Origin: Clostridia bacterium
GTDB lineage: Bacteria > Bacillota > Clostridia > Peptostreptococcales > Anaerovoracaceae
Assembly: GCA_024689865.1 (NCBI GenBank)
Contig: JAILDA010000014.1
Coordinates: 1 to 33,076 of the forward strand
DNA length: 33,076 nucleotides
Reading direction: 5' to 3'
Shown here: piece after piece, positions 2-33,076 of the stretch
How positions within the stretch are numbered: the stretch's first letter is position 1
Layout of the letters: each line of letters starts with the position of its first letter
The notes under the pieces: model-generated
Seen by the model: only the letters and a program-made list of their open reading frames with translations
Told to the model about the DNA's origin: nothing
Databases searched by the model: none
Translations under genes and position numbers: made by a program

Positions 2-1546
2 TACGGCTTGGGCAGCCCGGACGAATACAAAGGGCAGATGATATCGCTGCGCCCCGGCATGCAGAAGAGCCGCATGGACATCCTCCGCAGCCTGGTGGAC
101 ATACAGTACACCCGCAACGACATGGGCTTTGAGCGAGGCACATTCCGCGTCCGCGGAGACATCATAGACATCATCCCCGCGGGCATGGAGAACGCTATAC
201 GCGTGGAGCTTTTCGGGGACGAGATAGAATCCATAAAGGAACTTAACCAGCTTACCGGCGAAGTGATCGCCACACGCAGCCACGTTTCCATTTTCCCGGC
301 CAGCCACTATGTTACAAGCAAAGAACATATGGAGAGGGCCCTCGTAAGCATAGAAGAGGAGCTGGAGGACCGCCTTAAGTGGTTCAACGAGCGCGGCAGA
401 CTGCTGGAGGCTCAGCGCCTGGAGCAGCGCACGCGCTATGACCTGGAGATGCTCCGCGAGATAGGCATGTGCAAGGGCATAGAGAACTACTCGCGCCACC
501 TTATAGGCAACCCGCCGGGTGCCATGCCGTACACGCTTCTGGATTTCTTCCCCAAGGACTTCCTGATAATAATCGACGAGTCGCACGCCATGCTTCCGCA
601 GCTCAGGGCCATGGCCAACGGGGACCGCGCCCGCAAGGAGAGCCTTGTGGAGTACGGATTCCGCCTTCCCAGCGCTCTGGACAACAGGCCGCTTCGCTTC
701 GACGAGTTCGAAGGCAAGGTAAACCAGATAGTATACGTAAGCGCGACCCCGGCCGAGTACGAAAAGGAGAAAGCCGGCGGAATATCCGCGGAACAGGTGA
801 TAAGGCCCACGGGGCTTCTGGATCCGCCCATAGAGGTGGTCCCCACGGAGGGTCAGATAGACCATCTTATCGGGGAACTGCACAAGGAGATAGACAGGGG
901 ATACCGCGCGCTGGTCACCACTCTTACAAAGAAGATGGCGGAGAGCCTTACGGATTATCTTAAGAACGCGGGGCTTAAGGTCCGCTACATGCACTCGGAC
1001 GTGGATACCCTGGAGCGAAACGTAATAATACGAGATCTGCGCCTGGGGCGTTTCGACGTTCTGGTAGGCATCAACCTCCTGAGAGAGGGCCTGGATCTGC
1101 CGGAGGTTTCGCTGGTGGCGATACTGGACGCGGACAAGGAAGGGTTCCTGCGTACGGAAACGTCGCTCATCCAGACGGTAGGCAGGGCGTCCAGAAATGC
1201 GGACGGACGCGTAATAATGTACGCGGACAGCATCAGCAAGGCCATGAAGGCCGCGATTGACGAGACTGACAGACGCCGCAGCATACAGCAGGCGTATAAC
1301 GAAGAACACGGCATAACGCCGCAGACCATAAGAAAAGCCGTAAGGGACGTAATAGAAGTCACCACCAAGGTGGAGGCGGAAGTGGACGAATACGAGGGCA
1401 AGGATCTTCTGGAACTTACCAAGAAGGAGCTCTCCGAGTATGCGTCCAAACTGGAGAAAGAAATGCGCAAGGCTGCCGCGGACCTGCTGTTCGAAAGAGC
1501 GGCGGTGCTGCGCGACAGGCTGCTTGAAGTGAGGTCTAAGCTTTAA
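2..1546 (+). CDS. uvrB: Excinuclease ABC subunit B (UvrB), 5' end truncated by the window edge
   Basis: Frame continues from base 2 ([12 protein letters not shown]...). UvrB-like helicase motifs ([51 protein letters not shown]) and a C-terminal UVR-type domain. Confidence 0.97.
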
Positions 1547-2461
1547 ATGAACTGGTACGAAAAAACAAGACATAAACTGAGTCCGCAGACTGCGTCCATA
1601 ATAGGATGGGCAGGTTTTTCCGGGTCATTGATCATAGCCATCATAGTAATGGGCGCCGGTGCTGCGGACGGAATGACAAGGGAGACCGGCGGAGCAGTTC
1701 TTTTCATCGGTTTTCTGATAGCTGCAATTTTCGTGGCGTTCTGGTTCGCTTTCGGAAAGTGTTACGAGTGCGGCCGCATGCCAAGACCTTTCGAGACCTT
1801 CTGCGCAAACTGCGGAGCCAGACTGGACAAGAGCAAGGCTCAGATGGAAGCAGAGACTTCAAAAGAGCCGTCAGCGGGGCCTTCCGAAGCCCTTGCAGAA
1901 GCAGAGAAGAACGGCAGAGACCTTACGGAGACGACGGTCTCTTCCGAGACCATATTCGACGGCGTGGTGCTGCACGTCTTTAAAGATACCGTAAGCCTTC
2001 CGGACGGAAGAACGTCCACTCGGGAGTTCTTACGGCACCTCGGTGCAGTGTGCGTGGTGCCGGTAACGGCGGACGGCAAGATAGTGGTGGAGCGCCAGTA
2101 CCGCTACGCAGTAGGGCAGACCATGGTGGAGATACCCGCGGGCAAGCTGGACTACAAGGGTGAGGACCGCCTGGAGGCCGCCAAGAGAGAGCTGCGCGAA
2201 GAGACAGGCTACACGGCAGACCGCTGGACGGACCTGGGCACATATCTTACGGCGCCGGCCTTCAGCGACGAGAACATTAGCATGTACATGGCGGAAGGAC
2301 TCCACAAGGGCGACCAGGATCTGGACGACGACGAGTTCCTGGACGTTGTGGAGGTACCGCTGGAAGAGCTGGTAGCGGACGTCATGGCCGGCAGGATAAC
2401 GGACGCCAAGACGCAGACCGGCATACTGAAGGCGGCGGCGATCCTGAACGCCAGACTGTAA
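1547..2461 (+). CDS. Membrane-anchored zinc-ribbon Nudix hydrolase (ADP-ribose pyrophosphatase-like)
   Basis: Two N-terminal hydrophobic segments, a CYECGRMPRPFETFCANCG zinc ribbon, and a Nudix box GKLDYKGEDRLEAAKRELREETGY. The ATG directly follows the uvrB stop (TAAATG). Confidence 0.9.
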   Translation: MNWYEKTRHKLSPQTASIIGWAGFSGSLIIAIIVMGAGAADGMTRETGGAVLFIGFLIAAIFVAFWFAFGKCYECGRMPRPFETFCANCGARLDKSKAQMEAETSKEPSAGPSEALAEAEKNGRDLTETTVSSETIFDGVVLHVFKDTVSLPDGRTSTREFLRHLGAVCVVPVTADGKIVVERQYRYAVGQTMVEIPAGKLDYKGEDRLEAAKRELREETGYTADRWTDLGTYLTAPAFSDENISMYMAEGLHKGDQDLDDDEFLDVVEVPLEELVADVMAGRITDAKTQTGILKAAAILNARL

Positions 2462-2550
2462 GGCTGCCGCAGGATCCGGGGCTCTTGTCTGCGGGCGCTG
2501 TGCGGCGTCTGTGACCGGGCTTTCCGGCAAAAAATAATTTGTTTATTGCC

Positions 2551-2693
2551 GCGGCACACAGTCAGTGCGTCACGGACAATTGGGGAACCCGGTGCTCTGC
2601 GACTGGCAAGCCGGCAGCGCAGACAGAGCAGGAGCACCGCTGGGAGGGGCCCCATTAGCGGGAGCGTGTCCGCCAGCACTGACTGCGTGCCGC
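2551..2693. repeat. Long imperfect inverted repeat / structured element upstream of uvrA
   Basis: Outer arms gcggcacacagtcagtgc (2551-2568) and gcactgactgcgtgccgc (2676-2693) pair at 17 of 18 positions. Inner arms: cggaca/tgtccg, ggtgctc/gagcacc, ctgcg/cgcag. Confidence 0.75.
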
Positions 2694-2712
2694 TCCGTAA
2701 AGGAAATCATTA

Positions 2713-5559
2713 ATGCAAAAAGATCTGATCATCAAGGGCGCAAGGGCCCACAATCTTAAGAACCTGGACGTTACGATCCCGAGGGACAAGCTGGTCGTGA
2801 TCACTGGCCTGTCCGGCTCCGGCAAGAGCTCCCTGGCTTTCGACACCATCTACGCCGAAGGTCAGCGCCGCTACGTGGAGAGCCTGTCGGCATACGCCAG
2901 GCAGTTCCTGGGACAGGTGAGCAAGCCGGACGTAGACTCCATAGACGGCCTGTCGCCTGCCATCTCCATAGACCAGAAGACGACGTCCAAGAACCCCAGG
3001 TCCACCGTGGGCACAGTTACGGAAGTCTACGACTACCTGAGGCTTCTTTACGCACGCATAGGCGTGCCTCACTGCCCGGTCTGCGGCAGGGAGATAAGCA
3101 GCCAGAGCGTGGACCAGATAGCGGACCTTATAATGGCTCACGGCGAAGGCGCAAGGGTAACGATAATGGCTCCCGTCGTCCGCCAGAAGAAGGGCCAGCA
3201 CGAGAAGATCCTTGAGCGCATACAGCGCGAGGGCTTCGTACGCGTGCGCGTGGACGGCGAGATAAAGACGCTGGGCGAGGATGAGATAACGCTCAGCAAA
3301 ACATACAAGCACAGCATAGACATAGTGGTGGACCGCATAGTAATAAAGCCCGGCGCGGAAGGACGTCTTTCCGAGAGCGTGGAACTTGCGGTAAAGCACA
3401 GCGAGGGAGGCCTTGTCTGCGCGCTCATCCAGAGCGGCGAGGAAAAGGAAGAGCACCTGTTCTCCACCAGCCTTGCCTGTCCGGAGCACGGCATAAGCGT
3501 AGGCGAGCTGGAGCCGCGCAGTTTCTCGTTCAACTCCCCGTTCGGGGCCTGCCCGGTCTGCAACGGTCTGGGCTACATAGAGCGCATGGATCCGGACCTG
3601 ATAATCGACGACCAGAACCTTTCGCTGAATCAGGGGGCGCTCACCAAGGCGTTCGCCAGCATGGAATACTCCGGCTTCTACAAGCAGCTGATAGAAGCTC
3701 TGGCAGCCTATCACAAGCAGAGCATGAACACTCCGTACAAGGACCTGTCGGAGCCTTTCAAGCACGAGCTTTTATACGGCACGGACGGCAGAAAGCTGGA
3801 CTACGGCTACGTGCGCAGGGACGGTTCCATATCGCACAGGCACGACACGTTCGAAGGCGTAATACCCAACCTTATGCGCCGCCACGCCTACACCAATTCG
3901 GAGCTCATCCGCGACAAGCTGGAAGCCTACATGACCGTGGACGTCTGCGAAAAGTGCCACGGCAAAAAGCTTAAGGACGAGATCCTCGCCGTAACGGTAG
4001 GAGGCAAGAACATAATCGAATACACGGAGATGTCCGTGCGCGAGGCGCTGGCCTTTACGGAGGAACTGGAGCGCACATTAAGCCCGCGCGACATGTCCAT
4101 AGCGCGCCTTATCCTTAAGGAGATAAAGGCAAGGCTGGGGTTCCTGGCGGAAGTGGGCCTGGACTATCTTTCCATGAGCCGCGCGTCCGCTACGCTCTCC
4201 GGCGGAGAGAGCCAGCGCATAAGGCTCGCCACGCAGATAGGATCGTCGCTGGTAGGCGTAATGTACATACTGGACGAGCCGTCCATAGGCCTTCACCAGA
4301 AGGACAACGCCAAGCTGCTGCAGGCGCTCAGAAGCCTTGCGGACATAGGCAACACGGTCCTGGTGGTGGAGCACGACCAGGAGACCATGGAGGCAGCGGA
4401 CCAGATAATAGACATAGGTCCGGGCGCCGGCATCCACGGAGGAAAGCTGGTCGCACAGGGCAGCATAGAGGACATAAAGGCCTGCGGGGAGTCCATAACC
4501 GGACAGTACCTCTCTGGCAAGAAGAAGATAGAAGTACCCATCGGAAGACGCCCCGGCAACGGACGCTTCCTTACCGTAAAGGGTGCGCAGGAGAACAACC
4601 TTAAGGACATAGACGTGCGCATACCGCTTGGCGAGTTCGTATGCGTTACGGGCGTGTCCGGCTCCGGCAAGAGCAGCCTCATAAACGACATACTGTACAA
4701 GTCCCTGGCGCAGTCGCTCTACCGCGCCAAGGAAAGGCCCGGCAAGTGCAGAGGCATAGAAGGCCTGGAGTACATAGACAAAGTCATAAACATAGACCAG
4801 AGCCCCATAGGTCGCACACCCAGGAGCAACCCGGCCACTTACACGGGCGTGTTCACCAACATACGCCAGCTGTTCGCGCAGACCAACGACGCGAAGATGA
4901 GGGGCTTCGACCAGGGCCGCTTCAGTTTCAACGTAAAAGGCGGGCGTTGCGAGGCCTGCGGCGGAGATGGTATAATCAAGATAGAGATGAACTTCCTCCC
5001 GGACGTTTACATTCCGTGCGAGGTCTGCGGCGGAAAGCGCTACAACCGCGAGACCCTGGAGGTAAAGTACAAGGGGAAGAACATATACGACGTCCTTGAG
5101 ATGAGCGTGGACGAGGCGCTGGACTTCTTCGCCAGCCAGCCGGCCATAAACCGCTACATAGAGACGCTCCATCAGGTGGGCCTGGGCTACATCAAGCTGG
5201 GGCAGCCCAGCACGCAGCTTTCCGGAGGAGAGGCGCAGCGCATAAAGCTTGCGTCGGAACTCTCCAAGCGCAGTACCGGCAGAACGCTCTACATACTGGA
5301 CGAGCCCACTACCGGCCTTCATTTTGCGGACGTGGACAAGCTTGTGGACGTACTGCAGAGGCTCGTGGACGCGGGCAACACAGTGCTTGTAATAGAGCAC
5401 AACCTGGACGTAATAAAGTGCGCGGACCACATAATAGATCTTGGTCCGGACGGAGGCGAAAGGGGCGGCCTCATAATAGCGCAGGGCACCCCGGAACAGG
5501 TAGCCGAAGTCGAAGGTTCCTACACCGGTCAGTATCTTAAAAAGATCCTAAATAAATAA
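2713..5559 (+). CDS. uvrA: Excinuclease ABC subunit A (UvrA)
   Basis: Duplicated ABC ATPase ([51 protein letters not shown]), [12 protein letters not shown] and [12 protein letters not shown] signatures, zinc-finger Cys motifs. RBS-like aaaggaaa upstream. Confidence 0.98.
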
Positions 5560-5590
5560 CATAAAGCAGGTCGCTTCGGAGGGAAAAGCC

Positions 5591-7063
5591 ATGACCGAGA
5601 AAACGTTTTTAAGCAAGGACGGAAAGAGCACCATCCATTATTACGTATGGGAGCCTGCGGGCGAGCCCGTCGCCATTCTCCAGATAACCCACGGAATGGC
5701 GGAACACATGCTCAGGTACGAGCCGTTCGCGGAGTATCTTAACAGCTTCGGCATCCTGGTCTGCGGACACGACCACATAGGCCACGGACGCAGCGCGGCA
5801 CCGGAGGACTGGGGATATTTCGGAGAGCGCGACGGCTGGAAGATATTCGTTCAGGACGTTGAGCAGCTCCACCAGATCATGAAGGTACAGTACATGGATA
5901 CCCCGTACTTCCTGATGGGTCACTCCATGGGATCCTTCGTTGCAAGAGCATGGCTGGCGATGTACGGAACCGGCGTGGACGGAGCCATAATAATGGGTAC
6001 CGCCGGAGCCAATCCTGCGCTGGGCGTTGCGAAGTTCCTGGTAAAGACCATAAGGAATTCCAAGGGCAGCAGGCACATAAGCAAGCTCATAACCAATCTG
6101 GCGTTCGGATCCTACAACAAGAGGATAAAGCCTGCCAGGACTCCTTACGACTGGCTTACCAGAGACGGCGAGATAGTGGACAAGTACAACGCGGACCCGG
6201 CCTGCGGCTTTACCTTTACCGCCGCCGGATACGCGGACCTGTTCAACCTTATCGGATACATAAGCACGGAAAACTGGTACAAGCTTGTTCCCAAGAGTCT
6301 GCCCATACTTCTGGTAGCAGGCGCGGAAGACCCCGTAGGCGCTTACGGTGCAGGTCCGGCCGAAGTTGCCGAGGGCCTGGAGAACGCGGGCTGCAAGGAC
6401 GTTTCGCTCATCCTTTACGAAGGCATGCGCCACGAGATACTCAACGAGTTCGGCAAGGAAGCAGTCTACGAGGATCTTAAGAGATTCATCCTGGGCGAAG
6501 AGGCACTTGGCGCGGATGAAGACGAGGACGAGCCTGCGGAAGCCGTGGCTGCGGACATTGCAGAAAAGAAGCATTTCGACGCTGATCCTGAGGATATAAG
6601 GCCTGCGGCGGAAAAGGCAATGGACGATGCCGCGCAGCTTGATCACTCTTCTCCGGACATCAGCGGTGTTGAAAAGGCCGATGTGCCTCACAAGGGAATA
6701 AGAGGATTCGGATCCGAATTCAGCGAGGAACCTGCCGAAGATGCAGGTTCCAACGACGGCGAACTTAAGCTCAAGGCTGCGTTAAAGGATCTTATGGAAG
6801 AGCCTGCACTGGAAGTCGATGCTCCGGCTCAGGATAACAGACCTGCAAACGAGAAGGCGATGGATGCTGCTTCGGACTATCCTGATGCACCGGACCTTTC
6901 CGGCGTGGATAAGCAGGACGTACCGCACCGTGGCATCAGAAACGTATACGAGACTGTGGACGGACTGGCAGAAGGCGCTGCCGAAGCTGCTGAGACCGTT
7001 AAGGAAGAAGTCCGTAAGATCAGCGAGCAGGCCGAAGACCTGGCAGCAAAGTATAATGGTTAA
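5591..7063 (+). CDS. Alpha/beta-hydrolase (lysophospholipase/monoacylglycerol lipase-like) with an acidic, repeat-containing C-terminal extension
   Basis: ITHGMAEHMLRYEPFAEYL, GHDHIGHGRS, nucleophile elbow GHSMGS, late His in YEGMRHEILNE. About 180 residues of acidic tail. RBS ggaggg upstream. Confidence 0.9.
   Translation: MTEKTFLSKDGKSTIHYYVWEPAGEPVAILQITHGMAEHMLRYEPFAEYLNSFGILVCGHDHIGHGRSAAPEDWGYFGERDGWKIFVQDVEQLHQIMKVQYMDTPYFLMGHSMGSFVARAWLAMYGTGVDGAIIMGTAGANPALGVAKFLVKTIRNSKGSRHISKLITNLAFGSYNKRIKPARTPYDWLTRDGEIVDKYNADPACGFTFTAAGYADLFNLIGYISTENWYKLVPKSLPILLVAGAEDPVGAYGAGPAEVAEGLENAGCKDVSLILYEGMRHEILNEFGKEAVYEDLKRFILGEEALGADEDEDEPAEAVAADIAEKKHFDADPEDIRPAAEKAMDDAAQLDHSSPDISGVEKADVPHKGIRGFGSEFSEEPAEDAGSNDGELKLKAALKDLMEEPALEVDAPAQDNRPANEKAMDAASDYPDAPDLSGVDKQDVPHRGIRNVYETVDGLAEGAAEAAETVKEEVRKISEQAEDLAAKYNG
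6590..6703 (+). repeat. Copy 1 of a ~38-aa repeated motif in the hydrolase tail
   Basis: EDIRPAAEKAMDDAAQLDHSSPDISGVEKADVPHKGIR. Confidence 0.85.
6830..6940 (+). repeat. Copy 2 of a ~37-aa repeated motif in the hydrolase tail
   Basis: QDNRPANEKAMDAASDYPDAPDLSGVDKQDVPHRGIR; aligns with copy 1. Confidence 0.85.
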
Positions 7064-7724
7064 GCTGGGCAATTCCTGGGACGAAATACTAAAGGACGAG
7101 TTCCGAAAGGACTATTATCTTAAGCTGCGCGAATTCCTTAAGGAAGAATATTCCACGCGGACCATATACCCGGACATGCACAACATCTTCAACGCGCTTA
7201 AAAAGGCGTCGTACGAGGACGTTAAAGTGGTGATACTGGGGCAGGACCCCTACCACGAGCCGGGTCAGGCCCAGGGGCTGTGCTTTTCGGTTCCGGACGG
7301 TTTTCCGCTGCCGCCGTCGCTCAAGAACATCTATCAGGAGCTTGCGGAGGACCTGCGTGTAGTAAGGCGTTCCGGCAACCTGGAGGACTGGGCGGAGCAG
7401 GGCGTGCTGCTTCTGAATGCTGTCCTTACCGTAAGGCGCGGTCAGGCGGGATCGCACGCCGGAAAAGGCTGGGAGATCTTTACGGACCGTGTAATAGAAC
7501 TTCTCAACGAGCGCTCGGATCCTGTGGTGTTCCTGCTCTGGGGAGGCTATGCCAGGAAGAAAAAGGCCCTTATAACCAACCCGCGCCACTACGTGCTGGA
7601 GGCCGCTCATCCAAGCCCTCTGTCTGCCTATAACGGCTGGTTCGGATGCAGGCATTTCTCCCGCGCAAACGGCATTCTGGAGAGCCTCGGAAAGGCCCCG
7701 ATAGACTGGAAAGGGCGCGCCTGA
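7056..7724 (+). CDS. ung: Uracil-DNA glycosylase, family 1
   Basis: VVILGQDPYHEPGQAQGLCFSVP, GVLLLNAVLTVRRGQAGSH, AAHPSPLSAY. Proposed start ATG 7056 overlaps the end of the hydrolase gene by 8 bp; the tracked ORF starts too early. Confidence 0.96.
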   Translation: MVKLGNSWDEILKDEFRKDYYLKLREFLKEEYSTRTIYPDMHNIFNALKKASYEDVKVVILGQDPYHEPGQAQGLCFSVPDGFPLPPSLKNIYQELAEDLRVVRRSGNLEDWAEQGVLLLNAVLTVRRGQAGSHAGKGWEIFTDRVIELLNERSDPVVFLLWGGYARKKKALITNPRHYVLEAAHPSPLSAYNGWFGCRHFSRANGILESLGKAPIDWKGRA

Positions 7725-13543: not shown

Positions 13544-15787
13544 ATGAGCGCGCCGGACCGCAGGCCGCGGTGCGCAGCAGGTATCAACTTGTTCAGACAA
13601 GCAAAAGAAAAAAAAGGCGTCCTTATCTGCGGAGCCTACGGGCTCGGCAATTCCGGGGACGAGGCGATACTGGAGGCAGTCCTCTCCCAGATAAAGGAGG
13701 CGGACAGCACGGTACCCGTTACCGTAATTTCAAGAGATCCGCGCCGGACCGCAGACCTTCACAAGGTCCGTGCGGTCTGGTCTTTTAATGTTTTCGGACT
13801 CATCCGCGCTTTCAGGCGCAGCGGCCTTTTCTTAAGCGGCGGCGGAAGCCTCATCCAGGACGTCACCAGCCGCAGGAGCCTGCTGTATTACCTTGCCACC
13901 TTAAGGCTTGCGAAGCGCTTCGGGTGCAGCGTGGTTATGTACGGCTGCGGCATAGGACCGGTGGAAAAGACTGCCGACAGAAAGCTTGCGGCCAAGGTCA
14001 TAAACAAGTGCGCAGACTGCATAACGCTGAGGGATTCCAGGGCGCAGAAGGAGCTGGAGGCATTGGGCGTGTCCGGCAAGGACGTGCGTATAAGCGGTGA
14101 TCCGGCTCTGTCGCTTGCGGCAGCGGAAGGAACGGAACTGGACAGGGCGATGAGAGCTCTGGGCATGGATCCGGAGGAAAGGTACATAGCGTTCTCCCTA
14201 AGGGACATGGGCGAGGACAAGCTGCCGGCTTCCCTGGTGGCGGGCGCTGCGGACGAATGCAGCAGAAAGTTCGGCTGCCGCACCGTATTCATCTGCAACA
14301 GCAAGGAAGACGGCGCGTTTGCGGAGCGTGTTTCCGAGCTTATGGAAACACCTTTCATGATAGTTATGGAGGGCCTGAGATCCTCCGTCGTGCTGGGAAT
14401 AATGTCCAGGGCGGCGGCATTGGTCTCCGGACGACTTCATTCCCTTATATTCGCCGCGGGCGCAGGCGCTCCGGCAGTCGCGGTGTCCTACGACCCCAAG
14501 GTGACCGGTTTCATGGAAGACCTTGGCTGCGGCAGAACGATAGCCCTGGAAGACCTTACTCAGGAGCTTCTGGTGGAGAGCGTGGAGCAGGTGCTGGGCG
14601 AAGACAGACAGCAGCTGGCGGCCCGCGCGGAGGAATTAAAAAATCAGGAACTGGTCAATTCGGAAGTCCTTAAGGAATTCATGGAGAAGACCGGAGTAAG
14701 CATTCCCCGCGAGGAAAAGCCGGACGGCCCGGTAAAGCTTGCGTTCTTTACGTCGGACTTTAAGATAGGCGGAATGCAGAAATCGCTGGTCAATCTGCTT
14801 AAGAACCTGGACCACGAGCGCTGCGAGGCAGACGTGTACTACTACGAGGACGAGATCTTCTACGAGCTGCCTGTCTGCAAAGGCATCAACTACATAAAGC
14901 TGGAGCCCAAACCCTACTGGTACCGCTTCGTGTACTTCCGGCTTCTGATGCAGTTCGCAAAGGACCCGGCCCCCGGCAAGCACTACGATGTTGCGATAGA
15001 CTTCAACAGCTACCAGAACGAATGCGCCCTGTACGCCTGCACCGTAGACGCGGACAAGCGCGTTATGTTCGTGCACAACGACGTGGAGCGCAAGCTGGAG
15101 GAAGAGCCGAAATACAGGGTGCTGTGGCATTTCTTTAAAGGTAAGTTCGCGTATTACGACGAGTTCGCGGCGGTTTCGACGGGCATCGTGGAGAGCTTCC
15201 GCAGAGCGTCCGGCACCGATAAGCCTATCTGGATAGTGCCGAACTACGTAGACACCGAGGAGATATTCCAGAAGGCGGACAAGCCTCTGGTGTTCCGCTT
15301 CGACAACAGCAAATACAACCTCTGCGCCGTGGGCAGGCTGTGCCACCAGAAGGGTTTCGACATCCTGCTGGATATCTACGGCCGCGCGGCGGAGCTTAGG
15401 CAGGATCTGCATCTTTACATCATCGGCGACGGTCCGGACAAGGATTCCTTAAGGCTTAAGGCCCGCGAGATGGAGATAGACCGCAGGATGACTTTCCTGG
15501 GCAACCAGCCGAACCCCTACGCGTACATGTCCCACATGGACGGACTGGCTCTTACCAGCCGCTACGAGGGGCAGGGCATGGTGATAATGGAAGCCAAGGC
15601 GCTGGGTCTGGATCTTTACGTTTCCAGAAATCTGGAAGGATGCAATCAGGGCATACGCTGCAGCGACGACATCGCGGCGGAGCTTCTGACCGCGGACAAG
15701 AAGGTCAAGGTGCGCGACGACCTGAGCGCGTACAACAGGAACATAACCAGGCAGCTGGCCAGGATATTCGGCATCCCGGCAGAATGA
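13544..15787 (+). CDS. Fusion: CsaB-like polysaccharide pyruvyl transferase (N-term) plus GT4-type glycosyltransferase (C-term)
   Basis: N-term ICGAYGLGNSGDEAILEA, FLSGGGSLIQDVTSRRSLLYYL, MYGCGIGPV, SGRLHSLIFAAGAGAPAVAVSYDPKV. C-term from ~14731 TSDFKIGGMQKSLVNLL, VGRLCHQKGFDILLDIY, SRYEGQGMVIMEAKALG. One uninterrupted ORF; exact start uncertain. Confidence 0.9.
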   Translation: MSAPDRRPRCAAGINLFRQAKEKKGVLICGAYGLGNSGDEAILEAVLSQIKEADSTVPVTVISRDPRRTADLHKVRAVWSFNVFGLIRAFRRSGLFLSGGGSLIQDVTSRRSLLYYLATLRLAKRFGCSVVMYGCGIGPVEKTADRKLAAKVINKCADCITLRDSRAQKELEALGVSGKDVRISGDPALSLAAAEGTELDRAMRALGMDPEERYIAFSLRDMGEDKLPASLVAGAADECSRKFGCRTVFICNSKEDGAFAERVSELMETPFMIVMEGLRSSVVLGIMSRAAALVSGRLHSLIFAAGAGAPAVAVSYDPKVTGFMEDLGCGRTIALEDLTQELLVESVEQVLGEDRQQLAARAEELKNQELVNSEVLKEFMEKTGVSIPREEKPDGPVKLAFFTSDFKIGGMQKSLVNLLKNLDHERCEADVYYYEDEIFYELPVCKGINYIKLEPKPYWYRFVYFRLLMQFAKDPAPGKHYDVAIDFNSYQNECALYACTVDADKRVMFVHNDVERKLEEEPKYRVLWHFFKGKFAYYDEFAAVSTGIVESFRRASGTDKPIWIVPNYVDTEEIFQKADKPLVFRFDNSKYNLCAVGRLCHQKGFDILLDIYGRAAELRQDLHLYIIGDGPDKDSLRLKAREMEIDRRMTFLGNQPNPYAYMSHMDGLALTSRYEGQGMVIMEAKALGLDLYVSRNLEGCNQGIRCSDDIAAELLTADKKVKVRDDLSAYNRNITRQLARIFGIPAE

Positions 15788-22679: not shown

Positions 22680-24404
22680 ATGGCTAGATGGGTCATCGCC
22701 CGGGAAAACAACGATCAGGAGCAGGGGCTTTTAGGAGTCCCTGCTTCCGTGCTCAATATACTGACTAACCGCGGCATCCCCGCGTCCGAACTGGAGGACT
22801 TTCTGTCGCCTGCCCCCAAGGTAACGTACGACCCCTTCCTCCTTACGGATCTTAAGGAAGCAGCGCAGTTTCTGATCGACGCGGCAGACAGCGGAAAGAC
22901 CATCTGCGTGTACGGAGACTACGACGCGGACGGCATTACTTCCACTGCTCTCATGACCAGCGTCCTGGTGTGCCTTACTGACAAGGTGTTCAGCTACGTC
23001 CCCAGCAGGTTCACGGACGGCTACGGCTTAAGCGTCAGCGCCGTTCAAAAAATAAGGGATCAGGGCGCAGACGTACTGCTTACCGTGGACTGCGGAAGCA
23101 CAAGTCCCGCGGAAGTAAGATATGCCAAGGAACTTGGCATGGACGTCGTCGTTACGGATCACCACATCCTGCGCGACGGAATGGATCCGGAGTGTCTCTT
23201 CGTAAATCCCAAGCGCGACGGAAATTACCCGTTCAGCGAGCTCTGCGGATGCGGAGTGGCTTTCAAACTGGCACAGGGGCTTCAGCGTCTGCTGGAGCAG
23301 CGCGGCGACAGCCGCTTTACCAAGGCAAAGCTTAATTCGCTGCTGGACCTGGTAGCGATCTCCACCGTGGCGGATATAGTGCCGCTCAGGGGAGAAAACA
23401 GAAATCTTGTAAAATACGGGCTGGACAGGATAAACAGGAAGGAGCGCGCCGGGCTCAACTGCCTCCTTAACGCTCTGGATCTTTCCGGAAGGATAATAGA
23501 TTCCTCCAGCATTTCCTATATAATTGCACCCAACCTTAACGCGCTCGGCCGCATGAACGATGCTGCCCCCGGCGTGGAGCTTCTGGAGAGCAGAAGCACG
23601 GAGGAGAGGCTGGACGAGCTGGCCGAGCTTACGATAAAGACTAACATAGAACGCAAGGCCGAGCAGGAAAAGACCTTCAGGATATGCAGACAGAGCCTCG
23701 CAAAAGGGGACTGCGGCGAGTACGCACCGGTAATACTTGCGGATGGGGCTCACGAAGGCGTAGCCGGAATAGTTGCCGGCAACCTGAAGGAGCAGCTCTA
23801 CAGACCGGTGTGCATAGTAACGCCCACCGGAGACGGTCTGCTTAAAGGTACCGGAAGATCCATTCCGGGAGTAAATCTGCACCAGTGCTTCGAGAACTGC
23901 GGCGACATATTCACAAGGTTCGGAGGACACGCGGGAGCGTGCGGCTTCAGCCTTAAGGAAGAGAACCTGGACATATTCAGACAGCGCATGCAGGAGCAGG
24001 TAAAGTCTCTTGCGGACAATGATCCCGGACTCTTTACGGAGACCATATACATAGAGCACGAGCTTTCTTCCGCAGAGAAGAACATAGGCTATGCAGAAAA
24101 ACTTCAGCTGCTGGAGCCCTACGGTGAAGGCAACCCGGTGCCTCTGTTCTGCATAAAGAACGCGCAGGTAGGTTCGGTAAGGACCATGGGCGCGGACGGA
24201 CAGCACATTCGCTTTACCGCCATGACCGACGACAGGATACCGGTGGGCTGCGTGCTCTTCGGCAGAGCGGAGCAATACAAGGACATGATCTTCAGCCATT
24301 CGAGAATAGATGTTGCCGGAGAACTGGACATAAACGAATTCAGAGGAGAGCGCAAGCTCCAGATGAGAGTGAAGGACATACGCGTGTCCGGACAGGAAGA
24401 ATAG
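22680..24404 (+). CDS. recJ: Single-stranded-DNA-specific exonuclease RecJ
   Basis: VYGDYDADGITSTALM, TVDCGS, VVTDHHILRDG, DHHA1 motif RFGGHAGACGFSL. Confidence 0.95.
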   Translation: MARWVIARENNDQEQGLLGVPASVLNILTNRGIPASELEDFLSPAPKVTYDPFLLTDLKEAAQFLIDAADSGKTICVYGDYDADGITSTALMTSVLVCLTDKVFSYVPSRFTDGYGLSVSAVQKIRDQGADVLLTVDCGSTSPAEVRYAKELGMDVVVTDHHILRDGMDPECLFVNPKRDGNYPFSELCGCGVAFKLAQGLQRLLEQRGDSRFTKAKLNSLLDLVAISTVADIVPLRGENRNLVKYGLDRINRKERAGLNCLLNALDLSGRIIDSSSISYIIAPNLNALGRMNDAAPGVELLESRSTEERLDELAELTIKTNIERKAEQEKTFRICRQSLAKGDCGEYAPVILADGAHEGVAGIVAGNLKEQLYRPVCIVTPTGDGLLKGTGRSIPGVNLHQCFENCGDIFTRFGGHAGACGFSLKEENLDIFRQRMQEQVKSLADNDPGLFTETIYIEHELSSAEKNIGYAEKLQLLEPYGEGNPVPLFCIKNAQVGSVRTMGADGQHIRFTAMTDDRIPVGCVLFGRAEQYKDMIFSHSRIDVAGELDINEFRGERKLQMRVKDIRVSGQEE

Positions 24405-24407
24405 AAC

Positions 24408-25616
24408 ATGTATATAAGAAAAGGCGCATTCGTATTGTTTCTTGTCGTAGCGCTGATACTCGGCGGGGTGGGCATACTGTTCGCCCAGAGGGTCGGCGTA
24501 AGCAACAGTTCGCTGCTTACGGATGAAGAGTATAAGGAATACCAGTATCTTAAGGATACTTACGGCAAGTTCGACGACATAAAGAACTTCGTGGAGGAGT
24601 ACTATTACATAGACGTGGACAGCAATGCCATCATGGAATCCTCCTACAGCGGTCTGCTCGACGGTCTTAACGATCCCTATTCCGAGTATGTATCCGCGGA
24701 GGAATACGCAGATTATCTTGCATCCATGCTGGGCGAGTATTCCGGCGTGGGAATGTCGTTCTACGGCAACGAAGACGATGTTCTGGAAGTAGTAAAGGTA
24801 TACAGGAACAGCCCGGCTAAGCAAGCCGGAATGCAGCCCGGGGACATAATCGTAAAGGTTGACGGCAAAGAGTATTCCGGAAGCGAGTCTTCGGAAGCAG
24901 CCTCCAACATCAGGGGCAAGGAAGGAACGTCCGTAGAGCTGACCTACCGCCGCAGCGGTGTGGAGCATACCGTTACCATGGTGCGCGCATCCATCCAGGT
25001 GGATACCATAGAGTATAAGATGCTCGAGGATGACCTGGGCTACATACTCATCGACGGTTTCGAGAGCGCCACAGCCAAGGATTTTAAGGAAGCGCTGGAT
25101 GACCTTACCGCAAAGGGCGCCAAAGGTCTTATAATAGATCTAAGGGACAACGGCGGCGGACTTGTGGACCAGAGCATTAAGATAGCGGACATGCTGATGG
25201 AGCAGGGCACCGTGGTCTACACGGAGGATCACAACAAGAAAAAGGATTACTACACCACTTCCGCGGGACGCACGGAGCTTCCCTATGTGGTGCTCGTAAA
25301 CGAGTATACGGCTTCCGCCTCCGAGATACTGTCCGCAGGCATACAGGACAACAACGAAGGAATAATAATAGGCACCAAGACTTACGGCAAAGGAATAATA
25401 CAGAGCCTCTACCCCAGCAGCATGGTCCAGGACCGCGGCAGCTGGGACGACGGCAGCGCCGTTAAGATAACAATAATGCAGTACTTCTCCCCGTCCGGAA
25501 AGACCATACACAAGGTAGGAATAACTCCGGACTACATCGTGGAGCTCGTGGAAGGCGACGAGACCGACTACCAGCTTCAGAAAGCCATCGAAGTTCTTAA
25601 AACGGAGGTAAAATAA
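24408..25616 (+). CDS. S41-family carboxy-terminal processing protease (CtpA/CtpB-like) with PDZ domain
   Basis: N-terminal TM, SPAKQAGMQPGDIIVKVDGKE PDZ, LIIDLRDNGGGLVDQSIKIAD, EYTASASEILSAGIQDN, GTKTYGKGIIQ. Confidence 0.94.
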   Translation: MYIRKGAFVLFLVVALILGGVGILFAQRVGVSNSSLLTDEEYKEYQYLKDTYGKFDDIKNFVEEYYYIDVDSNAIMESSYSGLLDGLNDPYSEYVSAEEYADYLASMLGEYSGVGMSFYGNEDDVLEVVKVYRNSPAKQAGMQPGDIIVKVDGKEYSGSESSEAASNIRGKEGTSVELTYRRSGVEHTVTMVRASIQVDTIEYKMLEDDLGYILIDGFESATAKDFKEALDDLTAKGAKGLIIDLRDNGGGLVDQSIKIADMLMEQGTVVYTEDHNKKKDYYTTSAGRTELPYVVLVNEYTASASEILSAGIQDNNEGIIIGTKTYGKGIIQSLYPSSMVQDRGSWDDGSAVKITIMQYFSPSGKTIHKVGITPDYIVELVEGDETDYQLQKAIEVLKTEVK

Positions 25617-26359
25617 TGTTCTTGTTCGCAGCCCCGTCGTTACTCCTGATTGCTCTGGCGATACTGCCGGCCATACTGCTCATGATATACATCTACAAGC
25701 AGGACAGGTTGGAGCAGGAGCCTACAAGGATGATCATCAGTCTGGCCACGCTGGGCGTGGTTTCAACGTTCCTTGCCATGATAACGGAGACCGTAGGCAT
25801 GGCAGTCCTTGGCCGCATGTTTTCGGAATCCAGCGTTGTATACAGGCTTCTGCTGTACTTCATAGTTGTAGGTCTTTCCGAGGAAGGGTTCAAGTATCTG
25901 GTGCTTAAGATAGGCACCTGGAGGAGCCCGGAGTTCAACTGCAAGTTCGACGGTGTGGTATACGCTGTAGCGGTATCTCTGGGATTCGCCGTATGGGAGA
26001 ACATCAAGTACGTAATGACCTACGGACTTGCGACCGCGCTCGTAAGAGCGGTCACCGCGGTGCCGGGCCACGCGTGCTTCGGCGTAATAATGGGAGCCTG
26101 GTACGGGCTTGCCAAGAGAAAGCAGCAGCAGGGCTGGGACAGCGCTTCCAGGCTTGCCAGGTTCATGGCAGTGCTTCTTCCCACGATCATCCACGGGATC
26201 TACGACTTCATAGCCACGGCTAATACAAGCTCCATACACTTCATAATGTTCGTGGTAATAATGTTCGTGGTATGCTTCTACACAGTCAAGAGACTGTCGG
26301 CGGATGACAAGTATCACAACGACGATCAGGGTGAGGACCTGAACATAATAGACATATAG
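25616..26359 (+). CDS. PrsW-family intramembrane metalloprotease
   Basis: Polytopic; YKQDRLEQEP, VGLSEEGFKYLVLK, FDGVVYAVAVSLGFAVWENIKYV, PTIIHGIYDF. Confidence 0.9.
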   Translation: MFLFAAPSLLLIALAILPAILLMIYIYKQDRLEQEPTRMIISLATLGVVSTFLAMITETVGMAVLGRMFSESSVVYRLLLYFIVVGLSEEGFKYLVLKIGTWRSPEFNCKFDGVVYAVAVSLGFAVWENIKYVMTYGLATALVRAVTAVPGHACFGVIMGAWYGLAKRKQQQGWDSASRLARFMAVLLPTIIHGIYDFIATANTSSIHFIMFVVIMFVVCFYTVKRLSADDKYHNDDQGEDLNIIDI

Positions 26360-26397: not shown

Positions 26398-27771
26398 ATG
26401 ACTGCACTCAACTGGGTCGCGCTGGCGATCTTCGTAATTACATATGTACTGATCTTTACATTGGAAAAGGGCCGGCCTTACGTAGCCCTTGCCTCGGCGC
26501 TTGTTTTTGTGGTGCTGGGGATCATCCGTGTGTTTCCGGATTATTCCTACGGACCGCTTGCGGCGCTTAGGGAAATAGACTGGAACGTCCTTATGATGAT
26601 AGCCGGAATAATGGGCACCGTCGTGCTTTTCATAGATTCCGGCATGCCTAAACTGATCAGCGAGATGCTGATCTCCAAGGTCAGCTCCCTTAAATGGATG
26701 ATAGTGGTGATGAGCCTGTTTGCAGGCATAGTCTCCGCTTTCGTGGACAACGTTGCCACGGTGCTGATGATAGCTCCGGTGGCTCTTGCCATCTGTGCCA
26801 AGCTGGGTGTTTCCCCTGTGCCGATGGTGATCTGCGTGTCCATCTCGTCCAATCTCCAGGGCGCCGCAACGCTGGTAGGCGACACCACATCCATACTTCT
26901 TGCCAAATATGCCGGCCTGGACTTTACGGATTTCTTCTTCTTCCGGGGCAGGCCCGGAATGTTCTGGGTGACTGAAGCAGGCGCGCTGGTAAGCGCTCTT
27001 ATAATCTGCTTCATGTTCCGCAAGGAAAACAACAAGTTAGAGCCCTTTACCGAAAGGACGAAAGTAGAGGACAAGTTCCCCGGAATAATGCTTGCGGGAA
27101 CCGTTGTCGCTCTGATCGCTGTGTCTTTCATTCCCTACAAGGACGCTGCTGCGCCGGGACAGTTCTATAAGCCGGACTGGAGCAACGGAACGATCTGCAT
27201 TCTGTTCTTCCTTGTATGCATGGTGAGGACCTGCATAAAGGAACACTCTCCGAGAGCCGCAAAAAAATCCCTGAAAGAACTTGACCTATACACAATAACT
27301 CTTCTGGCCGGTCTGTTCATAGTGATAGGCGGAATAAAGAGGGCCGGAATAATAGACCTTATCGCCCGCGGAATATTCGATCTTTGCGGAGGCACCACAA
27401 GAGGCGCACTCTTCCTGACCTTCACGATAATTGTGTGGATGTCCGTACTGGTATCTGCTTTCATAGACAACATTCCGTACGTTGCCACCATGCTGCCGGT
27501 CGTGAGATCTTTGGCTGCCGGTTTCGCGGTGTCTTCGGATCCTGCGGTGGCAGGCAGCAGCACCATTCTGCTCTACTTCGGACTGCTCGTGGGGGCAACG
27601 CTCGGCGGAAATCTTACTCCTATAGGTGCTTCGGCGAACGTTCAGGGAATAGGTCTCCTCAGACGGGCTGGCTATACGGTAAAGCCTAAGACCTTCATGA
27701 AGTACAGCGTGCCGTTCACGCTCTCCGCGGTATTCGTCGGATACGCGCTGCTCTGGATCATCTGGATATAG
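26398..27771 (+). CDS. ArsB/NhaD- or SLC13-type ion/anion permease
   Basis: Polytopic; duplicated FVDNVATVLMIAPVA / FIDNIPYVATMLPVV motifs; GATLGGNLTPIGASANV. Confidence 0.88.
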   Translation: MTALNWVALAIFVITYVLIFTLEKGRPYVALASALVFVVLGIIRVFPDYSYGPLAALREIDWNVLMMIAGIMGTVVLFIDSGMPKLISEMLISKVSSLKWMIVVMSLFAGIVSAFVDNVATVLMIAPVALAICAKLGVSPVPMVICVSISSNLQGAATLVGDTTSILLAKYAGLDFTDFFFFRGRPGMFWVTEAGALVSALIICFMFRKENNKLEPFTERTKVEDKFPGIMLAGTVVALIAVSFIPYKDAAAPGQFYKPDWSNGTICILFFLVCMVRTCIKEHSPRAAKKSLKELDLYTITLLAGLFIVIGGIKRAGIIDLIARGIFDLCGGTTRGALFLTFTIIVWMSVLVSAFIDNIPYVATMLPVVRSLAAGFAVSSDPAVAGSSTILLYFGLLVGATLGGNLTPIGASANVQGIGLLRRAGYTVKPKTFMKYSVPFTLSAVFVGYALLWIIWI

Positions 27772-27783
27772 GCGGCACTCGCC

Positions 27784-28821
27784 ATGAGGATCCATCTTAT
27801 CAGGAAAGAAAAGGGAAAAGTATACAAGTCGGCGGACATAGTAGACGCCCTTTTTGGTTACGGGCTGGATCACGACGACGACCGCGCGCCGCACCTTAAA
27901 GGCCCCGGATCCGAAGGGTTTTTCATTTCCATAAGCGATACCGTTAATTACTGGGCCTGCTGCATAGAACCTCACATTGTCGGGCTGGACATGGAGGAGA
28001 GTTCCAGACGCGTAAAGCCCGCGATAGCAAGGAAGCTGCACAAGGCGGAGCAGGAATACCTTTCCGTGCTCTCCGAGGGAGGCAGCGAGTGGACGGAGGA
28101 ATTCCTGTCCATCTGGACGCGCAAGGAGGCATGGTCCAAATACAAAGGAGCCGGGCTGTCCCTTGGCTTCTCTTCTTTTTCCGTTCTGGACGGCAGCATA
28201 GAAGGTGTGCCGGTAGCAAGCTTTACCTACAAAGACCTTATCTTCGGGATAGCCGGGGACAAGGAGGCAGAAGTTCAGCGCACGGAGTACGACGCCCCGT
28301 TTGCCAAAAGCGCTCTGGAATACGGCGCGGATCTGCTGGACGTAAGGGGATACTCTTCCGGAGAACTGCGCAAGAAGCTGGAGGGCCGCGGATACGGGCC
28401 GGAGGAAGCAGCGCAGGCCATAGAAAAGTTTAAGGAATACGGATACATAAACGACAAAGAATACGCGGGCAGCGTCGCCCGCAAGGGTTCCGAGTCCGGA
28501 AAGTCGTCGCGGCGAGTGGAGACCGAGCTTAAGCGCAAAGGTCTGGATGCGGAGACTGCCAGAGACGCTGCGGAGGAACTTAAGGAAGGCGACTACGAAA
28601 GAGCGCTTGCCGAAGCAAGGAAGATGCTGGAAAAGCTCGGCGGACTGCCGTCTGTAAGCAGAGAAGACGACATCGGCAGTACGGAGGAAGCCCGCGAACG
28701 CGTAAGGGAAGCTTACGCGAAACGTCAGAAGATATACGGTAAGATATCCCGGAGGCTCTCAGCCCTCGGCTACGAGGCTTCGGTAATATATTCTGTTACG
28801 GAGGAACTGGTAAGATGGTGA
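27784..28821 (+). CDS. Fusion: 4'-phosphopantetheinyl transferase superfamily domain (N-term) plus RecX-family domain (C-term)
   Basis: N-term HIVGLDMEES and FLSIWTRKEAWSKYKGAGLSLGFSSFSV (Sfp-type motifs). C-term from ~28300 ALEYGADLLDVRGYSSGELRKKLEGRGYGPEEAAQAIEKFKEYGYINDKEYA... and KISRRLSALGYEASVIYSVTEEL (RecX three-helix repeats). Confidence 0.85.
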   Translation: MRIHLIRKEKGKVYKSADIVDALFGYGLDHDDDRAPHLKGPGSEGFFISISDTVNYWACCIEPHIVGLDMEESSRRVKPAIARKLHKAEQEYLSVLSEGGSEWTEEFLSIWTRKEAWSKYKGAGLSLGFSSFSVLDGSIEGVPVASFTYKDLIFGIAGDKEAEVQRTEYDAPFAKSALEYGADLLDVRGYSSGELRKKLEGRGYGPEEAAQAIEKFKEYGYINDKEYAGSVARKGSESGKSSRRVETELKRKGLDAETARDAAEELKEGDYERALAEARKMLEKLGGLPSVSREDDIGSTEEARERVREAYAKRQKIYGKISRRLSALGYEASVIYSVTEELVRW

Positions 28822-29510
28822 TCCCGATAGGTGCGATCACATGCGCGCTATGCATAGTGGTCGGGGGCCTGATAGGCTCGGCAGCCGGAGAAAAGATAAG
28901 CAGCAAGGTAAAGGATACCCTTAACATGATATTCGCGCTCGTGGCGCTGTCCATGGGCATAATCCCGCTCCCCGGGCTTAAGAACCTGCCCGCTGTGGTG
29001 CTGTCGGTGATCCTCGGCACGCTGCTGGGCGTTAAGCTTAAGCTTGGCGACAAAGTGCGCTCGGGCCTAAGCAAACTTGCCCGCGGACGCTGCACGGAGG
29101 AGTTCCTTACTATAGCGGTGCTGTTCTGCGTAAGCGGAACAGGCTATTACGGGGCGCTGGTGGAAGGCGTTACAGGAGACCACAGCATTCTGCTGGCCAA
29201 GGCGATACTGGACATATTTACGTCCGCGATACTGGCCTGCAAGCTTGGAAAGTCCGTGTCCCTTCTGGGCATACCGCAGGGCGTGATCCATCTTGTGATA
29301 TTCTTCATAGCCAGGTGGATATACCCGCTTTGCACACCGTCCATGATAGCGGACTTTAAAGCCGCGGGCGGCTACATAATGCTTGCGACGGGGCTCAGGA
29401 TGCTTAAGCTTCGCGAGGATCTTCCCACTGCGGACATGATACCGTCGCTGATAATCGCCCTGCCGGTGTCGTGGCTGTGGAGCACTTACATTACTCCGCT
29501 GCTTGGCTAG
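28815..29510 (+). CDS. DUF554 family membrane protein (YdfK-like)
   Basis: IPIGAITCALCIVVGGLIGSAAGEKI, VLFCVSGTGYYGALVEGVTGDHSILLAKAILDIFTS. Start overlaps the preceding stop region. Confidence 0.88.
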   Translation: MVIPIGAITCALCIVVGGLIGSAAGEKISSKVKDTLNMIFALVALSMGIIPLPGLKNLPAVVLSVILGTLLGVKLKLGDKVRSGLSKLARGRCTEEFLTIAVLFCVSGTGYYGALVEGVTGDHSILLAKAILDIFTSAILACKLGKSVSLLGIPQGVIHLVIFFIARWIYPLCTPSMIADFKAAGGYIMLATGLRMLKLREDLPTADMIPSLIIALPVSWLWSTYITPLLG

Positions 29511-31825: not shown

Positions 31826-31892
31826 TAATAAGTTATGGAACAGTCGCCCGGAAAGGGCGGTAATACCCGGTTCGATATAAAAGGTAGTTAAA

Positions 31893-33076
31893 ATGTACAA
31901 GAATCTTTCAGACAAACCTATCGCGCAGGTGCAGCTGGCACAGGCGGACAAGTGGGACGAGATGAACATGCTCCAAAAGTGCGTGGACCTGAGGGAGGGT
32001 CAGCCGAACTTCCTGTTCTACGAAGGCCCGCCCACCGCTAACGGCAAGCCCGGCATCCATCACGTAATAGCAAGGACACTTAAGGACTCCGTCTGCAGGT
32101 ACAAGACCATGCAGGGATTTAAGGTGCGCCGCAAGGCAGGCTGGGACACCCACGGACTGCCGGTGGAGATAGAAGTCGAAAAGCAGCTGGGATTCTCCGG
32201 CAAGCAGGACATAGAAAAGTACGGCATCAAGGAGTTCAACGAAAAGTGCAAGGCCTCCGTATTTACCTACGAGGCAATGTGGCGCAACATGACCCACCGC
32301 ATGGGCTACCTGATCGATCTGGACAACCCGTACATTACGCTGGACAACAACTACATAGAGACCGGCTGGTGGATAATCAAGGAGTTCTTCAAGGCCGGAC
32401 TCATATACGAAGGACATAAGGTAGTTCCTTACTGCCCGCGCTGCGGAACAGGACTTGCTTCGCACGAGGTAGCTCAGGGTTACAAGATGATAAAGGTAAC
32501 TTCGCTCTACGTTCCGTTTAAGAAGAAGGGCGAGGAGAACACATACTTCATGGCATGGACCACCACCGCGTGGACCCTTGCCGCCAACGAGTTCCTGGCA
32601 GTAGGCCCGGACATCGACTACGTTAAGGCGGAGCAGAACGGCAGATTCTACTACATGGCAAAGGCCAGAGTGGACGCAGTCCTGGGATCCCACGGAGAGT
32701 ATAAGATCGTGGAAGAAATGAAGGGCGCGGATCTGGAGGGCATGGAATACGAGCAGCTGATGCCGTTCGTCGAGATCCCCGGAAAGGCCTTCTTCGTAGG
32801 CACCGCGGACTATGTTACCACGGAAGACGGTACCGGAATAGTACACTGCGCTCCCGCGTTCGGCGAGGACGACTACGTTGCCGGCAGAAAGTACGGCGTG
32901 GCCGTGGTCAACCCCGTGGACGAGGAAGGCAAATACACCGCAACTCCCTGGAATGGCCGCTTCATCATGGAAGAGGGTCTGGACGTAGAGATAATCAAGT
33001 GGCTGGCTGCGGAAGACAAGATCTACGACAAGCAGAAGCTGGAGCACAACTATCCGCACTGCTGGCGCTGCGACAC
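31893..33076 (+). CDS. ileS: Isoleucyl-tRNA synthetase, N-terminal part (runs off the window end)
   Basis: FYEGPPTANGKPGIHHVIARTLKD, GWDTHGLPVEIEVEKQLG, AWTTTAWTLAANEFLAVG editing region. Open to the last base, absent from the ORF track as a + strand entry. Confidence 0.96.
   Translation, partial: MYKNLSDKPIAQVQLAQADKWDEMNMLQKCVDLREGQPNFLFYEGPPTANGKPGIHHVIARTLKDSVCRYKTMQGFKVRRKAGWDTHGLPVEIEVEKQLGFSGKQDIEKYGIKEFNEKCKASVFTYEAMWRNMTHRMGYLIDLDNPYITLDNNYIETGWWIIKEFFKAGLIYEGHKVVPYCPRCGTGLASHEVAQGYKMIKVTSLYVPFKKKGEENTYFMAWTTTAWTLAANEFLAVGPDIDYVKAEQNGRFYYMAKARVDAVLGSHGEYKIVEEMKGADLEGMEYEQLMPFVEIPGKAFFVGTADYVTTEDGTGIVHCAPAFGEDDYVAGRKYGVAVVNPVDEEGKYTATPWNGRFIMEEGLDVEIIKWLAAEDKIYDKQKLEHNYPHCWRCD

Follow-up and report, generated by a model that had tools for sequence, protein, structure and literature searches.

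A predicted phosphopantetheinyl transferase-RecX fusion protein, conserved and recurrent within one bacterial family

The window analyzed here, a 33,076-nucleotide stretch of DNA from a Clostridia bacterium, exhibits a single open reading frame (positions 27784..28821, forward strand; 345 codons plus TGA) in which a 4'-phosphopantetheinyl transferase (PPTase) of the Sfp type is followed by a RecX domain. We consider it quite probable that this two-domain protein arose from the merger of two operon neighbors, a PPTase gene and then recX, and that both halves keep their old, independent jobs. Judged from genome comparisons, the fusion is real, conserved, old and recurrent within one family; its age, its recurrence and the fact that it carries the only PPTase detected in the genus lay beyond the sight of the first-pass annotation of this DNA. 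Here an apparently indispensable enzyme is joined to an unrelated DNA-repair regulator, a union maintained in at least seven genera. With repeated fusions of this gene pair in one family, the question of neutrality or selection in such mergers becomes tractable. A best-hit annotation would label the gene as recX or as PPTase, overlooking the other half, and the genus would then appear devoid of a holo-ACP synthase. The PPTase-RecX architecture appears to be undescribed, no description having been found in the literature searched, a search with most subscription journals outside its reach. The host group consists of uncultured bacteria, kin of rumen organisms.

The fused gene runs from ATG to TGA without interruption, and no stop codon occurs at the junction, in agreement with the first-pass annotation, which had described one 345-aa frame. 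Its assignment of the two halves to PPTase and RecX also stands, neither half being reassigned by Pfam or by profile matches to known structures, and the motifs it had quoted, VGLDMEES and WTRKEAWSKYKGAGL, are correct. The PPTase domain covers positions 27784..28197 (forward strand, residues 1-138) and, judged like all Pfam calls in the window protein by the curated gathering cut-offs, matches ACPS at residues 66-138 (E-value = 6e-11, 42.8 bits against a cut-off of 25). The junction (28198..28305, forward strand, residues 139-174) comprises the end of the PPTase lobe and a linker. The RecX domain (28306..28818, forward strand, residues 175-345) exhibits matches to RecX_HTH1 at residues 177-215 (E-value = 7e-12, 45.6 bits, cut-off 26) and to RecX_HTH2 at residues 223-262 (E-value = 9e-8, 32.7 bits, cut-off 26), a putative third helical unit being indicated by predicted fold only. 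A profile of 13 fusions matched the Sfp structures 1qr0 and 4mrt (E-value of about 6e-25, profile positions 4-191) and the RecX structures 3dfg, 3e3v, 3c1d and 3d5l (E-values from 3e-19 to 5e-17, profile positions 190-345). Sfp and RecX structures were both found as well with the window protein alone as the query.

The genus is known from draft assemblies, several of them highly fragmented, which would favor an artefact of assembly or sequencing, a reading to which we give virtually no credence. The same unbroken fused frame, common to all 11 genus genomes, encodes proteins 48-96% identical to the window protein, and the fusion is present in six more genera. Pairwise comparisons with the window gene gave a dN of 0.01-0.24 against a dS of 0.22-2.3 in each of four segments (PPTase, junction and the two RecX parts); on these substitution rates both halves of the gene are under purifying selection. 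The frame shared by 11 genomes, together with a dN far below dS in both halves, rules out a sequencing error.

Profile searches of the family yielded one-frame PPTase-RecX matches in the window's genus and in g27, g61, g78, g87, g89, g94, g97, g101 and g105; in g56 and g5 only some members gave such a match. Most of the family possesses PPTase and recX as separate genes, and a profile search of about 396 genomes from elsewhere in the phylum found no match spanning both domains. A tree was built from the PPTase and RecX sequences, plus ileS or recJ where present, of 78 loci selected among the top profile matches; fused and in-frame loci are therefore over-represented in it, and no fusion rate can be obtained from it. 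The architecture, which the first-pass annotation had proposed to look for in other genomes, is present in the whole genus and in six further genera of one clade; this clade, with a support of 100, holds 30 intact fused loci, and no reversal to separate genes was seen within it. Four further loci, in which the contig ends within the gene, are consistent with fusion. Mapping the fused or separate state on the tree requires seven changes, at least six of them forced by the starred branches, which points to separate later fusions elsewhere in the family. Although a change may be either a gain or a loss of fusion, the later fusions appear recent: of the four in g56, three retain a methionine at the position of the recX start of their sister genes, with the stop codon gone. 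The draft genome G288 exhibits two different fused PPTase-RecX genes (L135 and L136), which may reflect a duplication or a contamination of the draft.

The gene order in the genomes examined is often recJ, S41 peptidase, PPTase, recX and ileS. In relatives with separate genes, recX often starts just before, or some tens of bases from, the stop codon of the PPTase gene; in several genomes the recX ATG overlaps that stop codon (ATG at -1), and in some relatives recX lies in frame behind the PPTase gene with a single stop codon between them. Some genomes have recX 0.8-1.8 kb downstream of the PPTase gene, or on another contig. Since the two genes are often directly adjacent, overlapping or separated by a lone stop codon in non-fused relatives, read-through after the loss of a stop codon is the likely origin; the fusion would most likely have started with an accidental merger of neighboring genes and not with a link between two processes. 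As the relatives suggest, the stop codon between the PPTase gene and recX would have been lost, translation would have read through into recX, and the former recX start would then have disappeared.

The PPTase half exhibits the GxDxE metal-binding motif (GLDME, residues 67-71) and the WxxKE-x3-K motif (WTRKEAWSK, residues 111-119), and no variation was seen at residues G67, D69, E71, E89, W111, K114, E115 and K119 across 13 diverse fusions. The S-H-S/T motif is without its histidine in the window protein (SISDT, window positions 27928-27942). An aspartate replaces this histidine in 25 of the 30 loci of the fused clade; it is retained in nearly all separate genes and in g101, the first branch within the clade. 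The lysine of the GKP motif is often replaced in the fused clade. Residues of the S-H-S/T and GKP motifs have a role in CoA contact or binding, and the S-H-S/T histidine is not needed to define the superfamily. Compared with Bacillus subtilis Sfp (1qr0, 4mrt), the fusion shares both the GxDxE and WxxKE-x3-K motifs and a profile match over Sfp residues 35-222, but it has RecX attached, an aspartate for the S-H-S histidine, and no counterpart of Sfp residues 1-34. The histidine replacement, the frequent loss of the GKP lysine and the missing N-terminal segment make PPTase activity less than certain, and they would fit a non-catalytic half acting as a scaffold. We hold this to be highly improbable, given the invariant acidic and KE motifs, the purifying selection on the domain, and the finding of no other PPTase despite the presence of AcpP and the type II fatty acid synthesis genes (FASII). 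In an AlphaFold model based on a four-sequence alignment the PPTase half falls below a pLDDT of 50, and no claim is drawn from that part of the model.

The first-pass annotation had suggested looking for a standalone recX, acpS or sfp in the genomes with the fusion. No other PPTase was found in any genus genome, only the fused gene matching PF01648, and no free RecX was found in them either, G004 included; G004 is 98% complete, but the window's genome is 69% complete and most of the other genus genomes, the window's included, lie at 61-82%, so that incomplete genomes account for part of the evidence against a second PPTase. Likewise, no AcpS was found beside the fused Sfp-type enzyme, and the genus exhibits no short stand-alone AcpS-like frame (about 115-180 aa). 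The genus possesses an AcpP, which bears the motif DSLDAVE, and also a FASII cluster headed by a second carrier protein and including FabK-like, FabD, FabG and FabF genes. G004 possesses the fusion, AcpP, the FASII cluster and a separate recA. Of the 352 family genomes, 328 gave a PPTase match, usually just one, and the listed frames are mostly about 200 aa long; other families of the order mostly show an AcpS-like length of about 115-180 aa. From this difference in length, AcpS seems to have been replaced family-wide by an Sfp-type PPTase of about 200 aa. Since the fusion is the only PPTase found, even in G004 with its AcpP and FASII cluster, its N-terminal half is very probably the housekeeping holo-ACP synthase; it would transfer 4'-phosphopantetheine from CoA to AcpP, making holo-AcpP, in a lineage without AcpS. 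Cyanobacteria show that an Sfp-type enzyme of broad range is able to act on the carrier proteins of fatty-acid synthesis (PMC5605751). PPTase domains integrated in larger enzymes, as in fungal type I FAS, have been described as a PPTase subfamily (PMC5605751); there, too, the PPTase is built into a longer chain, but its partner is the carrier protein's own synthase, whereas here it is an unrelated recombination protein. In one genome (G018, L033:7505-8851, reverse strand) the PPTase frame has a YrvL domain upstream, possibly a different fusion, or else a frame whose true start lies far inside it.

Whether the fused gene would yield one chain or, in addition to the full-length fusion, a free RecX from an internal start can be judged from the junction. 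Near the window junction a GTG is the sole candidate start, and no Shine-Dalgarno-like sequence precedes it; several fused loci lack a candidate altogether, the candidates of other loci lie at differing positions, and no conserved junction start with a Shine-Dalgarno-like sequence was found in the genus. The old recX methionine kept in the recent fusions G115, G121 and G134, and an internal ATG in G075 preceded at 5 nt by GGAGG, would speak for two products. With the window's lone GTG and the loci devoid of any start set against them, we regard two products as distinctly unlikely, and one chain is the likely product in the genus. A vestigial recX ribosome-binding site was considered at AAGGAGG (28261-28267) and rejected, as no in-frame ATG, GTG or TTG follows it at the proper distance.

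The RecX half, the only RecX found in the genus, is very probably an ordinary RecA modulator. It shares with known RecX proteins (3dfg, 3e3v, 3c1d, 3d5l; B. subtilis RecX, PMC3527212) two helical repeats over the Pfam cut-offs and, by predicted fold, a putative third, and differs from them in standing behind a PPTase and in a third repeat that, in the window protein, gives no Pfam match over the threshold. HTH3 exceeds its cut-off in two other loci (L031 and L073). The AlphaFold model is confident for the RecX half only, and this half matches RecX structures, with a TM-score of 0.77 by target length for 3e3v. Like free RecX, the C-terminal half would bind and modulate RecA filaments. recA was found in nine of the 11 genus genomes. 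The window itself contains none, as had been noted at first pass; the recA of this genome lies on another contig (G000:C1:30160-30948). In mycobacteria recA and recX overlap (PMC3062782); unlike mycobacterial recX, the fused RecX is not beside recA.

The first-pass annotation had left the choice between a neutral merger of adjacent genes and a coupling of the two activities. If coupled, the holo-ACP synthase would report CoA or ACP status to RecX, for example through CoA or ACP bound to the PPTase half altering RecX activity, or it would be held at RecA-DNA; membrane-lipid supply and recombination would then be adjusted together. Points consistent with this reading are the fused clade of seven genera without reversal, the change of histidine to aspartate in most of that clade, and the repeated fusion of PPTase with recX when the neighboring recJ-S41 pair, taken as a control, was never fused (adjacent in 35 loci, in frame in eight of them), a control that is weak and carries little weight because the S41 peptidase is an exported protein and the sample over-represents fused and in-frame loci. 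However, no pathway joins the two processes, and the genes stay separate in most of the family. A stop-loss fusion is one mutation away and re-splitting is harder, so that retention needs no benefit. The complete retention across seven genera, and the confinement of repeated fusion to one family, may hint at some benefit beyond chance. A coupling of lipid synthesis to recombination is possible but unlikely, and this analysis lends it no support; the merger is favored by genes that adjoin or overlap in relatives and by later fusions that resemble stop-codon losses. Under the merger of operon neighbors, the two jobs would share one chain and neither would need the other.

The neighbors of the fusion described here lie on the forward strand of the window. 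Upstream are recJ (22680..24404), kept as a neighbor in much of the family, an S41 peptidase of CtpB-like type (24408..25616), a PrsW-family membrane protease (25616..26359), which is an upstream neighbor in the genus, and a CitMHS/ArsB-like permease (26398..27771) ending 12 nt before the fused gene. Downstream, the ATG of a DUF554 membrane protein gene (28815..29510) overlaps the end of the fused gene, and ileS (31881..33074), whose frame is cut by the window end, is again a neighbor kept in much of the family. Positions 8-7721, at the start of the window, carry uvrB, uvrA and a uracil-DNA glycosylase gene; with these and recJ the contig is rich in repair genes, recA being elsewhere. A 747-aa frame at positions 13544-15787 exhibits a match to polysaccharide pyruvyl transferase followed by a glycosyltransferase match, and is possibly another fusion of neighbors.
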